Shown piece by piece: positions 1,884-16,167 of a DNA stretch of 21,340 bases. Each line of letters opens with the position of its first letter. Positions within the stretch are counted from its first letter, which is position 1. Source of the DNA: a virus; the IMG/VR virus record IMGVR_UViG_3300020188_000064, positions 1-21,340 of that record. The stretch is one strand, 5' to 3'. Under the pieces are notes generated by a model. It did no database searches. It was given only the letters and a program-made list of their open reading frames with translations, and was not told the origin of the DNA. A program made the translations under genes and the position numbers.

Positions 1884-2591
1884 TTAATCTATAGATATTG
1901 GGCCAAAAAAGTTTTTTCCGCCCCAAGTTAAATCTAAATCTATCACTTCGCCGCCTGGCAGTGTTATGGAGGAGCCTCCGCTTACAGAAGAGGCTGCAGC
2001 TGCATCAAAACTAATAGGTTGTCCAGGTACTCTTAATTTTCCATATAATACAGGAACTGGATCTCCTTCAATTATGTTTTGTTCCGCTCCATTAAATAGG
2101 TATGATTGTTCTTGATCATTATCGGTTGCAGGATCGGGTGCCATTAGTTGCATTATACCAGTTAATGCTAGGTTTACGGCTACAGCCCCTGCAAAATATA
2201 CAGCCGCGGTGGCAGTTTTGCCCAATTCTGCAAAAGCTACTTCCCACCCAACAGTACCTCCACTAGTAACTATCAAATAAGTAGCAACTACAATAGCTAT
2301 CGCTGCAAGAATTTTTGACCCCCCACTTTTTGAACCCGCGGGAACAGGAGTAATGGTTATGTCTCCTTCTGAGATATTCATTAATAGTTCTTCTTGATAC
2401 TCTAAGCACTCTCCAGCTATATCTATTTCAAATCCTACGTCTTTTTCGTGCTGTTCTATTAAGTACTTTTGAAAGTCTGGAAAATTTGCATCCAGACAGC
2501 GAAATACTTCTGCAGGAGTCTCTGCTACTATCTCAAGCTCACGAATAAATTTATGCCCAAGCTCTCCTTCTAAAAATATTTTACGTTTCAT
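1884..2591 (-). CDS. I: Tail assembly protein I (lambda gpI-like)
   Basis: A 235-residue homologue of lambda tail assembly protein I, needed for tail-tip assembly though not prominent in the mature virion. The N-terminal ~85 residues are a small soluble domain starting with a LEGELGHKF strand. They are followed by a Pro/Gly/Ser hinge and two strongly hydrophobic stretches (about 92-112, ILAAIAIVVATYLIV, and 128-150), then a polar tail that includes the motif around EGDPVPVLYGKLRVPG. That hydrophobic glycine/alanine-rich middle followed by a PVPVLYG-type segment is typical of gpI. The start overlaps the stop of K by 11 bases, indicating translational coupling, and the order K-I-J is as in lambda. 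Moderately high confidence from both sequence and position. Confidence 0.88.
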   Translation of the reverse strand: MKRKIFLEGELGHKFIRELEIVAETPAEVFRCLDANFPDFQKYLIEQHEKDVGFEIDIAGECLEYQEELLMNISEGDITITPVPAGSKSGGSKILAAIAIVVATYLIVTSGGTVGWEVAFAELGKTATAAVYFAGAVAVNLALTGIMQLMAPDPATDNDQEQSYLFNGAEQNIIEGDPVPVLYGKLRVPGQPISFDAAAASSVSGGSSITLPGGEVIDLDLTWGGKNFFGPISID

Positions 2592-3285
2592 ATCTGTACG
2601 CTTCCACTAAAAATTTGATCCACAAAGGATACAAGCTTTCTCTGCAAGATAACCTATTTACTGCGTGATGATAAAAAGTTTCGTTACCTAAATAAACCCC
2701 GCAATGGTTTGGCACCTCTGAGTTATTTTGAAATAAAAGTATATCATTTTTTTGGACTTCTTGCAAGGAAATTTTTTTGAACCCCCACTCGGCCATAAGC
2801 TCTTCGCAAAAATAATTTAAACCTTTTTCCCACCAGTCGTCTTCAAAAGCTATACGATGTGGTATAGTTATATTTTCTCTCTTTAAAAAATCTCTGGCGG
2901 CTTCGAAACAATCATATTTGCCAAATATATATTCTCTTCCATAAAGTTCTGTAACATCGGTGTCGGGCTGCTGTATATGTAAGTCCATAGTAGGATAGCT
3001 AAATATATAATATGGAATGCCTAAGGAGTTGCAGTAGTTTATATCGTGCTCACTGGGCTCACAGCTACTATCTGGATGACTGTGTACTATTGCTATAATA
3101 TCTGAGGTTCTATGTATTTTTAGATATTCTTGGGAGTCAAATATAAAGTCTTCGTCATTAGAAGCTATATTTTTACAAGGCACCCAACTAGCTTTTCCTT
3201 TTACTACTGTTATTAAGCCACAGCCTTCTTTTGGGTACTCTTTTTCAAAGTGTTGTTGTATTTCTTCTAGAAAATTAAGTATCAT
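2581..3285 (-). CDS. K: Tail tip protein K: JAMM peptidase-like plus NlpC/P60 domain
   Basis: A 234-residue lambda gpK homologue with two peptidase-like domains. Residues 1-110 form a JAB/MPN metallopeptidase-like domain with the zinc signature intact: E20, then H68-S-H70, S78 and D81 (HxH-x7-S-x2-D). Residues 115-234 form an NlpC/P60 domain with catalytic-type Cys126 (KYDCFEAARDFL), His194 (NHCGVYLG) and a third polar residue, His206 or His207. All key residues of both domains are present, so both may be active. Such proteins act in tail-tip maturation and may trim peptidoglycan during DNA entry; which of these roles applies here is inference. The ATG overlaps the L stop as ATGA, a coupling signal, and I follows with an 11-base overlap. 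Confidence 0.93.
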   Translation of the reverse strand: MILNFLEEIQQHFEKEYPKEGCGLITVVKGKASWVPCKNIASNDEDFIFDSQEYLKIHRTSDIIAIVHSHPDSSCEPSEHDINYCNSLGIPYYIFSYPTMDLHIQQPDTDVTELYGREYIFGKYDCFEAARDFLKRENITIPHRIAFEDDWWEKGLNYFCEELMAEWGFKKISLQEVQKNDILLFQNNSEVPNHCGVYLGNETFYHHAVNRLSCRESLYPLWIKFLVEAYRYET

Positions 3286-13811: not shown

Positions 13812-13844
13812 GTAAAAACTTGGGGAGGCGAACCTCCCCAGTTT
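13812..13844 (-). terminator. Rho-independent terminator after capsid gene
   Basis: On the minus strand AAACUGGGGAGG-UUCG-CCUCCCCAAGUUUUU forms a long stem: eight pairs nearest the loop, one bulged A, then four more A/C-U/G pairs. The loop is UUCG and a U-run follows. It lies 6 bases past the capsid stop and would terminate most transcripts after the capsid gene. Confidence 0.93.
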
Positions 13845-13850
13845 AATATA

Positions 13851-15236
13851 TTAGGATCCGGCGCCCAAACGAACTGCAGCGGCCTTACCTGCAACAGAGT
13901 TGAACAACTCGTCGAAGCCAAGGTGCTGAGTACCAACAAGTACGCGACGCTGAGCAGCAACTTCATAGTCTTGCTCTACAGTCACGCCACGAAGACGTGG
14001 AATAACAAAGTTGGATACGTTTACAGCAAACGCGCCCATGTTGGCGGTAGAAGCGGCAGCAAAGTTATCAGAGATAACAACTGGCGAACCATATACAGCA
14101 CCAACTTGACCAGTCAACTTCAGAGCAGCATCTGAACCAACTTCAAATACGTTGTCAAATTCTGCATCATTGATGAGATCATGGTATACATCCTGTGAAA
14201 CGATATATACTACGTCTTGAGGCATAAGGCCGTATACGCCCATATCTCGACGCATAGCTACAAGATCTTTTGCAGTTACAGCAGTACCAGTAGTAGTTAC
14301 TTTATCAGTAGAATCTACTGCCAGACCATCGAGACCCGGGATAGCTTTGGAGTTACCAACAAGAATTGCAGCATCTACAGCACGAGCGTGTGAACGAGCA
14401 ATACCATCAGTCAACATTGGCATCAAGTTAACAAGTACTTCTTCATCAATGTAGTTGTCCATGTAAGAAGTAGAGATCAAACGATCTACTTGCAAAATCT
14501 TTTGCTTAGCGTTGTAAGTACCTGTAGTACCACCAGTACGATTAGTAATACCAGTGGTATCACCTGCGCCCAGAGCGTCTTCGCCACCTGTTGACCAAAC
14601 AGCGGCAGTTACGTCTTCTTGCAAAGGAAGAACTGTAGACTTAGAGTTTACTGCCATCTCACGGAAGAGTTGAGCAGTTCGCAACTGAAGCTGAATCTCT
14701 TTCTCAATCATAGTAGAAACTTCTTGATTGATGTCACCAGCGTTAGCCGCATAGTCAATACCAGCTTTTTGCAATACTGAACGGCCAAAGTCAGTATCAA
14801 AACCTTTGCTAGTAATTACACCAAGAAGGTGCGCATGCATAAGGTCTTTGTTTCCTTTTATAAGGTTAGAGCCTTCACGGTCAGCAAAAATACGCTTAGA
14901 TTCACGCATTTTGGTAAGCTCTTCGTTCTTCTCTTGGAGTTGAGCAGCAAAAGACTTAATTACTTCTTCAACCTTTGCATCTTTCTCTTGTAGCTTCTTC
15001 TCAACATCAGCCATAAGACGCTCTGCGCCTGACTCGATGCCTACACGAATAGCAGACTCTTGTGCAGCTTTTTGCTCTGCTTCTACAGCAGCTTTTTGCG
15101 CTGCTTCTTGTGCTGCTTTTTCTGCAGCGGCTTTCTCTTCGGCCTGCTTCATTGCGATCTTAGCGGCAGTCTCTTCAGCTACCTTCTTAGCGAATGCTTC
15201 CAGGTCGATTTCTGGAGTGTTATTAACTTCAGACAT
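13851..15236 (-). CDS. Nested internal start: scaffold-major capsid protein
   Basis: In-frame start inside the protease-capsid gene. The ATG at 15236 (Met207 of the long frame, beginning M-S-E-V-N-N) is preceded by AAAAGGAG (15250-15243) with a 6-base gap, a much better ribosome-binding site than that of the long frame. Product would be 461 residues: coiled-coil scaffold/delta region of ~115 residues, then the capsid fold of ~345, close to HK97 gp5 (385 residues with a 102-residue delta domain). This is the logical way to make hundreds of capsid subunits with only a few proteases, as fusion molecules. What I see is the site and frame; use of both starts is inference. Confidence 0.8.
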   Translation of the reverse strand: MSEVNNTPEIDLEAFAKKVAEETAAKIAMKQAEEKAAAEKAAQEAAQKAAVEAEQKAAQESAIRVGIESGAERLMADVEKKLQEKDAKVEEVIKSFAAQLQEKNEELTKMRESKRIFADREGSNLIKGNKDLMHAHLLGVITSKGFDTDFGRSVLQKAGIDYAANAGDINQEVSTMIEKEIQLQLRTAQLFREMAVNSKSTVLPLQEDVTAAVWSTGGEDALGAGDTTGITNRTGGTTGTYNAKQKILQVDRLISTSYMDNYIDEEVLVNLMPMLTDGIARSHARAVDAAILVGNSKAIPGLDGLAVDSTDKVTTTGTAVTAKDLVAMRRDMGVYGLMPQDVVYIVSQDVYHDLINDAEFDNVFEVGSDAALKLTGQVGAVYGSPVVISDNFAAASTANMGAFAVNVSNFVIPRLRGVTVEQDYEVAAQRRVLVGTQHLGFDELFNSVAGKAAAVRLGAGS

Positions 15237-15854
15237 TTGGATCTCCTTTTGGACTTCTTCGTCCCTTTCCGGTGTTTCACTAGCTACTTCTGAATCTTCA
15301 GTTTTAGCCAGAGACTGACCGGCTAGATCTACACTGTTTTTGAATTGTTTCTTGAAATCTTCGTACTCGGCCATCGAGTCAAAAGATTTAGCCAATGAAA
15401 AAGTAGCTGCTTGGTTGCAAGGCACAGACACAACTGAAACCTCGAACAGTTCAGCATCCTTAATCTTTAATCCGTCAGTTTCACTAATATAATCAGCATC
15501 CTTGACTCGGAAACCGACAGAAAAGGCTCCAAGGACACCGTCTTTAACAAGGTCCGCCACTGCTCCCGAAGGAACCTTAGCACTTTTTGAAATTTTTGCT
15601 TTTAACTCAAGACCATTTTCAGTTACTTTTAAGCCCGTCGCACGGCCAATAGGATGATTATAGTCATGGTTAAAAAGAATAATAGGATTTTTCTCGAAGT
15701 TAGCTAATCCGCCTTTCGTCCAAGCCGTTGCGTCTATAGTATCGCCTGCTCGATCAAAATCGGAAGTACTTGCCATACCGCAGATATGAACACCGCCATC
15801 TTCATCTACATCTAAGGACTTAAAGGTGGAAGTAAAGTTAAAAATTTTATTCAT
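13851..15854 (-). CDS. Fused prohead protease - scaffold - major capsid protein
   Basis: One 667-codon frame carrying three usual head genes. Residues 1-160 are an HK97-type (U35) prohead protease: STSDFDRAGD near 30, His63 and His67 in LFNHDYNHPIG, Ser112 in GAFSVGFR, and ELFEVSVVSVPCN at 135-147. Residues 161-206 are an acidic linker. Residues 207-320 are an Ala/Glu/Lys-rich coiled coil acting as delta domain or scaffold. Residues ~325-667 are an HK97-fold capsid protein (VLPLQEDVTAAVW, then QVDRLISTSYMDNYIDEEVL, then a C-terminal VGTQHLGFDELFN). A strong internal start at Met207 would make capsid alone. Codons in the capsid part favour CGT and ATT/ATC. The start overlaps the upstream gene by 8 bases, and its AAAGG site lies in the loop of a 7-bp hairpin. 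Confidence 0.92.
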   Translation of the reverse strand: MNKIFNFTSTFKSLDVDEDGGVHICGMASTSDFDRAGDTIDATAWTKGGLANFEKNPIILFNHDYNHPIGRATGLKVTENGLELKAKISKSAKVPSGAVADLVKDGVLGAFSVGFRVKDADYISETDGLKIKDAELFEVSVVSVPCNQAATFSLAKSFDSMAEYEDFKKQFKNSVDLAGQSLAKTEDSEVASETPERDEEVQKEIQMSEVNNTPEIDLEAFAKKVAEETAAKIAMKQAEEKAAAEKAAQEAAQKAAVEAEQKAAQESAIRVGIESGAERLMADVEKKLQEKDAKVEEVIKSFAAQLQEKNEELTKMRESKRIFADREGSNLIKGNKDLMHAHLLGVITSKGFDTDFGRSVLQKAGIDYAANAGDINQEVSTMIEKEIQLQLRTAQLFREMAVNSKSTVLPLQEDVTAAVWSTGGEDALGAGDTTGITNRTGGTTGTYNAKQKILQVDRLISTSYMDNYIDEEVLVNLMPMLTDGIARSHARAVDAAILVGNSKAIPGLDGLAVDSTDKVTTTGTAVTAKDLVAMRRDMGVYGLMPQDVVYIVSQDVYHDLINDAEFDNVFEVGSDAALKLTGQVGAVYGSPVVISDNFAAASTANMGAFAVNVSNFVIPRLRGVTVEQDYEVAAQRRVLVGTQHLGFDELFNSVAGKAAAVRLGAGS
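15243..15250 (-). promoter_or_regulatory. Strong internal ribosome-binding site for capsid
   Basis: AAAAGGAG six bases before the in-frame ATG at 15236, within the linker between protease and scaffold. It decides the nested start of the capsid protein. Confidence 0.85.
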
Positions 15855-16167
15855 CGTCTACAACCTTTTCTTTCTTAGTAGACGCCTTTTTTAGGGCCTC
15901 TAAGCCTTCTGAAGCAGCAGGAGCTGGTTCTTCCTTTGGAATCGGATTAATAATAGTATTTACATCAGGATAGAAGGTTTTGAGTTGGCCCATTACTCGC
16001 GGCCAACGGTTACCCCATCCTGCTTTAATTAGTCTTCGTGCTACAGCTTCTCCAGCGCCTACGGCTTTTAAATAGTCTTCGTAGGCAACATCTGTTGTAA
16101 GAGCGTGCATTTTAAACTGCTCATACATTTTATCAAGAATAGCTTTTTTTGATCTCATTGTAGGCAT
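15847..16167 (-). CDS. Hypothetical protein between portal and protease
   Basis: A 106-residue protein I do not recognise. The N-terminal ~60 residues are helical and basic (MRSKKAILDKMYEQFKMHAL), followed by AVARRLIKAGWGNRWPRVMGQL, whose Gly/Trp-rich turn between helices could be a helix-hairpin nucleic-acid or protein contact. The C-terminal 30 residues are Pro/Ala/Glu/Lys-rich and probably disordered. It shares a base with the portal stop (TAATG) and overlaps the protease start by 8 bases. It is therefore translated with the head genes and is probably a head-assembly or minor head protein (inference from place only). Confidence 0.6.
   Translation of the reverse strand: MPTMRSKKAILDKMYEQFKMHALTTDVAYEDYLKAVGAGEAVARRLIKAGWGNRWPRVMGQLKTFYPDVNTIINPIPKEEPAPAASEGLEALKKASTKKEKVVDDE
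15855..15884 (-). other. Hairpin enclosing the protease ribosome-binding site
   Basis: On the mRNA CGUCUAC (15884-15878) pairs perfectly with GUAGACG (15861-15855) around a 16-base loop containing AAAAGG, the only Shine-Dalgarno candidate for the protease-capsid frame. The 3' arm directly abuts the ATG at 15854. It could reduce initiation of the long product; regulatory role is inference. Confidence 0.5.

Follow-up and report, generated by a model that had tools for sequence, protein, structure and literature searches.

A predicted nested capsid start preceded by conserved RNA structure in a phage gene joining prohead protease, scaffold and capsid

The window (the whole stretch of viral DNA that was analysed, 21,340 nucleotides of IMG/VR record IMGVR_UViG_3300020188_000064) carries on its minus strand an uninterrupted ATG-to-TAA stretch of 667 codons (Table 1). 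An original prediction made from the letters of the window had read this stretch as prohead protease, scaffold and capsid in one frame without a stop, and profile searches bear this out at the N terminus, where PF04586 (prohead serine protease) matches residues 55–161 with E=3.6e-14 (53.7 bits against a cut-off of 21) and TIGR01543 (NCBIfam) scores 67.9 against a cut-off of 59. The catalytic residues proposed at the same time were borne out: His63 and Ser112 are the same in all 82 of 82 aligned sequences, and so are Glu135 and Glu138. With both the scores and the catalytic residues in place, the N terminus of the 667-aa product is an HK97-type prohead protease (Peptidase S78). An AlphaFold2 model built from 23 aligned sequences was too poor for use (mean pLDDT 51). 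The long start shares 8 nt (15847–15854) with the upstream gene (15847–16167), an overlap through which the long product may be translationally coupled to that gene. Elsewhere on the minus strand of the window, a tail gene (2581–3285) has JAB and NlpC/P60 domains fused, an arrangement that is usual in siphophage tail assembly.

Table 1. Features of the fused gene and its flanks in the window.
Feature	Position	Strand	Basis
Long product: prohead protease–scaffold (delta)–HK97-fold capsid, 667 aa	13851..15854	-	ATG-to-TAA open frame, profile matches
S78 prohead protease domain, residues 1–161; His63, Ser112, Glu138	15372..15854	-	PF04586 above cut-off
Nested product: predicted scaffold–capsid precursor, 461 aa	13851..15236	-	Met207 invariant in 79/79; homology to T5 major head protein
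Nested Shine–Dalgarno (SD) sequence AAAAGGAG, six bases ahead of the ATG	15243..15250	-	GGAG at spacing 6 in 217/217
Scaffold (delta) domain, residues 207–363; predicted cleavage after Lys363 (codon 14766–14768)	14766..15236	-	Lys363 invariant; T5 chain lengths
Predicted mature capsid protein, residues 364–667	13854..14765	-	T5 match and Lys363
RNA element 1, within coding sequence: GAUCUAGC flank, P1 (CGGU/ACCG), P2 (UC-CUGGCUA/UAGCUAG-GA), variable P3 hairpin (15290–15301)	15270..15329	-	Synonymous identity, fold z, covariation, covariance model
Hairpin 2, GGAC[GAAGAA]GUCC, 4 nt upstream of GGAG	15251..15264	-	Stem in 78/78 distinct sequences; mean z −3.7
Intrinsic terminator directly after the capsid stop, TGGGGAGG-TTCG-CCTCCCCA-AGTTTTT	13814..13840	-	Similar hairpin and T-run in 75/76 representatives

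A first search of viral contigs gave 80 loci, in which the frame is single wherever the gene is complete, and two further searches together with three contigs from marine Gammaproteobacteria MAGs brought the collection to 217 loci running from long start to stop. Protease, scaffold and capsid form a single open frame in all 217 of these full-length relatives, and the same open frame in independent contigs excludes a sequencing error hiding a stop. Three truncated gene copies (L102, L144 and L174), each broken at another place, look like sequence errors. Programmed frameshifting in the linker was dropped as an explanation, as inspection by eye found no conserved slippery site there. The related phages come from sea and lake, and the contigs from marine Gammaproteobacteria and Halieaceae MAGs (L204, L205 and L206) carry both the fused gene and the RNA element described below, hinting at the hosts of these phages. 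The nearest relatives in phage records, at less than 60% identity, are T5-like phages in which protease and capsid are encoded separately. In the Vibrio phage VCPH (L081 3628–3652) the protease and capsid genes are in frame with each other and a single stop codon and 21 nt keep them apart, making it an apparent stepping stone toward fusion; no other split relatives of the VCPH kind were found in the viral-contig search. In a tree built with the linker columns left out, the fused sequences group together in a single clade that excludes the three split ones.

At the protease/scaffold junction, codon 207 of the long frame is an in-frame ATG (position 15236) preceded at six bases by the predicted SD sequence, and since an ATG with GGAG exactly 6 nt upstream is kept in 217 of the 217 full-length relatives the site is not there by chance. 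Seven columns with a methionine in 60% or more of 79 representatives were tested for an SD; an SD-like motif occurs at codon 207 (79/79) and at the gene's own start (46/79), and in 0–1 sequences at the other columns. The two codons that form the SD are AAG GAG or CAG GAG in 36 of 36 representatives, against 2 of 110 Lys-Glu pairs and 1 of 86 Gln-Glu pairs with the same codon choice elsewhere in the gene. From these comparisons we infer that the nested ATG and its SD are under selection beyond any constraint at the protein level, which lends sequence support to the two nested products proposed originally. The accompanying claim that the nested site is the better of the two holds for most of the clade: the nested start has a mean SD energy of −8.3 (sd 0.7), the long start one of −5.5 (sd 2.5) and the remaining in-frame ATGs one of −1.3, and the nested SD is the stronger in 68 of 79 representatives, some relatives having a strong SD for the long product too.

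This bias in initiation matters for the stoichiometry of assembly. Proheads of HK97 contain about 60 proteases to 415 capsid subunits and those of D3 about 90 to 540 (PMC12749128), numbers which imply that such assembly needs the protease as a minority; a weak long start combined with a strong nested start would yield a similar minority here. It is highly improbable that only the long product is made, with self-cleavage freeing the capsid and the internal ATG incidental, a reading that fits the uninterrupted frame of every full-length relative but implies as many proteases as capsid subunits, which is not the case in HK97 or D3, and leaves the invariant SD, the synonymous constraint on it and the hairpin described below unexplained.

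The T5 major head protein matches the C-terminal part of the long product (E=2e-57, profile positions 238–655), and the nested product, at 461 aa, is close in length to the 458-aa T5 precursor pb8. By full-length similarity and scaffold length the nested product is thus assigned as a putative T5-type capsid precursor with an N-terminal scaffold. In T5 the N-terminal scaffold domain of pb8 is removed by the phage protease (PMC5292684), and the solved mature chain comprises 299 aa of the 458-aa precursor. Lys363 is invariant (79/79) and lies one alignment column off T5 Lys159. If cleavage occurs after Lys363, both products would give the same subunit of about 304 residues, protease and scaffold being removed together, and with a shared mature subunit the protease tether would therefore be transient. 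The suggestion that the protease is built into the shell survives in part: co-assembly of the fusion seems plausible, but incorporation would be at most transient, as protease and scaffold both lie upstream of the predicted cleavage point.

Conserved RNA structure ahead of the nested start is an addition to the original prediction. Hairpin 2 lies between element 1 and the nested SD, 4–8 nt before GGAG across relatives, and has a stem of at least 4 bp in 78 of 78 distinct sequences (28% of shuffled sequences reach this); its stem sequences differ among relatives with strong covariation, and its mean z is −3.7 over 79 representatives. Upstream of the other gene starts in the window z falls below −1.5 in 2 of 19, most values being near zero, and the nested starts tested in the NF045541 family of fusions have no comparable upstream hairpin (mean z 0.1). 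The predicted unpaired probability of the nested SD is 0.59, against 0.30 when the upstream codons are synonymously randomised (higher in 78 of 79 representatives, p=1e-14). As randomisation lowers SD accessibility, the upstream structure would serve to present the nested site; in the clade without element 1 the corresponding values are 0.48 and 0.40, a small gain. Structured regions upstream of an SD have been found to change initiation over 100-fold (PMC3936740).

Further upstream, synonymous identity over codons 176–184 is about 1.0 against a gene mean of 0.56. This segment belongs to element 1, a hairpin of about 60 nt and near-invariant sequence in which GAUCUAGCCGGUCAGUCUCUGGCUAA, the variable hairpin and UAGCUAGUGANACACCG are predicted to form a long irregular hairpin with internal loops (z=−4.2 for the window copy). 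In two representatives P1 has a compensatory change, A-U replacing C-G. P3 forms a hairpin of 4–6 bp in 36 of 36 distinct sequences with compensatory pair changes, and its support comes from this covariation and not from stem length, because 58% of short shuffled segments reach 4 bp. P2 is almost unchanged in 68 representatives and is neutral for the predicted fold. A covariance model of element 1 gave one strong match in a scan of the window; weak opposite-strand matches at the same place were not counted, because palindromic stems predict them. Rfam 15 gave no match to the whole window or to 15100–15500, either at gathering score or at E up to 5, and we regard the predicted structure before the nested start as a family that Rfam lacks. 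That the element is a mobile RNA was ruled out, the newly fetched core matches listed (at least 122) all lying in this gene. Three segments of element 1 (CUAGCC, GGCUA and UAGCUAG) hardly vary and are complementary to one another, a pattern like that of a bistable RNA.

In principle the synonymous constraint might stem from an overlapping gene, or from one segment having been transferred recently, and the clean pattern of presence and absence of element 1 would suit such an origin. We give this very little credence: the hairpins covary, the element-1 core is found, among the matches listed, only in this gene, and the best alternative frame is open across the region in no more than 12 of 79 representatives, on which ground an overlapping gene was dismissed.

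On the tree element 1 was lost twice inside the fused clade, with hairpin 2 and the nested SD retained. Since these losses spared the nested start, and the sequence of element 1 is conserved far beyond what an insulator needs, the element probably does more than insulate. One proposal is that it marks a site of processing or stability, cleavage near the hairpins releasing an mRNA for the capsid alone, headed by a 5′ hairpin and ended by the 3′ terminator; amplification of capsid would then take place at the level of mRNA, and the processed message would have the nested start as its first. The long irregular hairpin with its internal loops has the look of such a site, and with a terminator closing the capsid gene in 75 of 76 representatives such a message would have a hairpin at either end; near-invariant primary sequence is however unusual at processing sites, and the two losses left hairpin 2 and the nested SD in place, so that we hold this proposal to be unlikely. 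No more favoured is an operator or switch, with nested initiation altered over time either by an alternative fold or by a protein, whether capsid precursor, protease or host factor. The complementarity of the 5′ CUAGCC, middle GGCUA and 3′ UAGCUAG strands, with P2 so little changed, would provide for it, as would the ability of the loop GUCUCU to pair with the SD (GGAGAY) and the invariance of the 5′ strand though unpaired in the predicted fold; but strands, loop and SD are so nearly invariant that they offer no covariation to draw on, the SD–loop pairing is weaker in some variants (L225 and L231), and the SD is open in the predicted fold. Somewhat less doubtful, though still tentative, is the broader idea that element 1 represents a new class of regulatory RNA within a coding region: as a switch or operator, responding for instance to feedback from the capsid precursor, it would let the phage shift the balance between fused protease and capsid, in addition to the fixed nested start that the hairpin presents.

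Our preferred reading, to which as a whole we assign a probability of about 0.68, is that one mRNA yields two in-frame products that co-assemble, with the protease dose set by two starts and the nested site presented by RNA. A minor protease–scaffold–capsid fusion would be initiated at 15854 and a major scaffold–capsid precursor at 15236. Because the scaffold and capsid domains are common to both, the fusion could co-assemble and the protease enter the prohead without a separate targeting signal, its dose following from the initiation ratio of the two starts. After assembly the protease would cut after Lys363, so that scaffold and protease are lost and a uniform shell is left. Hairpin 2 and element 1 would fold the upstream coding sequence on itself and keep the nested ribosome-binding site single-stranded; the open site would hold capsid initiation high and steady despite drift of the coding sequence, and capsid would be over-produced relative to the fused protease. 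Against this reading stand the NF045541 fusion family, which does without the hairpin, the small accessibility gain in the clade that lacks element 1, and the strong long-product SD of some relatives.

Few proteases enter a shell of several hundred subunits, and their loading is usually ascribed to protein–protein recognition. Fusing the genes around a nested start would instead load the protease by way of assembly domains common to both products, a pair of ribosome-binding sites encoding the dose, and any effect of the RNA at this site should be directly measurable from the relative amounts of the two proteins. That nested starts recur in unrelated fusions suggests convergence on one solution, and annotation pipelines hide the nested product by calling the long one alone. 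Cultured fusion phages (MD8, mEp213 and the Rhodobacter phages) make the nested-start part of the model testable now.

A clear nested start is not the rarity among fusions that it was originally taken to be. In the junction region (codons 150–260), 20 of 27 NF045541 loci have an ATG whose SD energy is −6 or below, against 6.5% of other in-frame ATGs, and in that of phage-record fusions (codons 140–260) 8 of 10 do, the remaining two being at −5.6 and −5.7; other in-frame ATGs pass at about 5–7%, a somewhat generous contrast because each gene has several ATGs in the junction region. For a few of them (MD8 and mEp213) the best-scoring ATG lies within the protease and the second at the junction. 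The MD8 and mEp213 fusions (L328 and L329) each have two SD-backed ATGs, at codons 185/220 and 176/211, the first of each pair inside the protease domain. Nested capsid starts thus look like the rule in unrelated fusions, including those of the cultured phages MD8, mEp213 and Stenotrophomonas S1, and it is the RNA structure, not the nested start, that distinguishes the window clade. Excerpts of the open-access description of MD8-like phages (PMC8508860) report a fused protease–scaffold–capsid gene, cite the C/Nu3 overlap of lambda and do not mention a nested start, descriptions elsewhere being possible. The Rhodobacter phages are annotated as having protease/major capsid protein fusions; Moraxella Mcat17 and Agrobacterium 7-7-1, whose annotation had suggested fusions, were dismissed, as their genes are separate. 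NF045541, Pseudomonas MD8 and Rhodobacter RcOceanus resemble the window in having protease, scaffold and capsid in one gene, with an SD-backed junction ATG in most, but the NF045541 fusions belong to another lineage (the window protein scores 44.2 bits against a cut-off of 525 and is not a member) and their tested loci have no hairpin before the nested start.

In lambda an internal in-frame start in the protease gene C gives a shorter nested product, the scaffold alone. The window gene shares the internal in-frame start within a protease gene, but where the lambda product is scaffold only, the window frame runs on through the capsid domain, so that the nested product comprises scaffold and capsid and the shell protein itself is part of the fusion. 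The closest likeness is to T5 (Demerecviridae), in gene order, in an S78 protease over 160 residues, in near-equal scaffold length and, one alignment column off, in a lysine at the predicted cleavage point. T5-like phages encode protease and capsid as two genes, an arrangement not found in the window clade, in which there is one frame without a stop (217/217) and the capsid start lies within it. On this homology the window module is best described as a fused relative of the separate T5 genes for the protease and the pb8 precursor.
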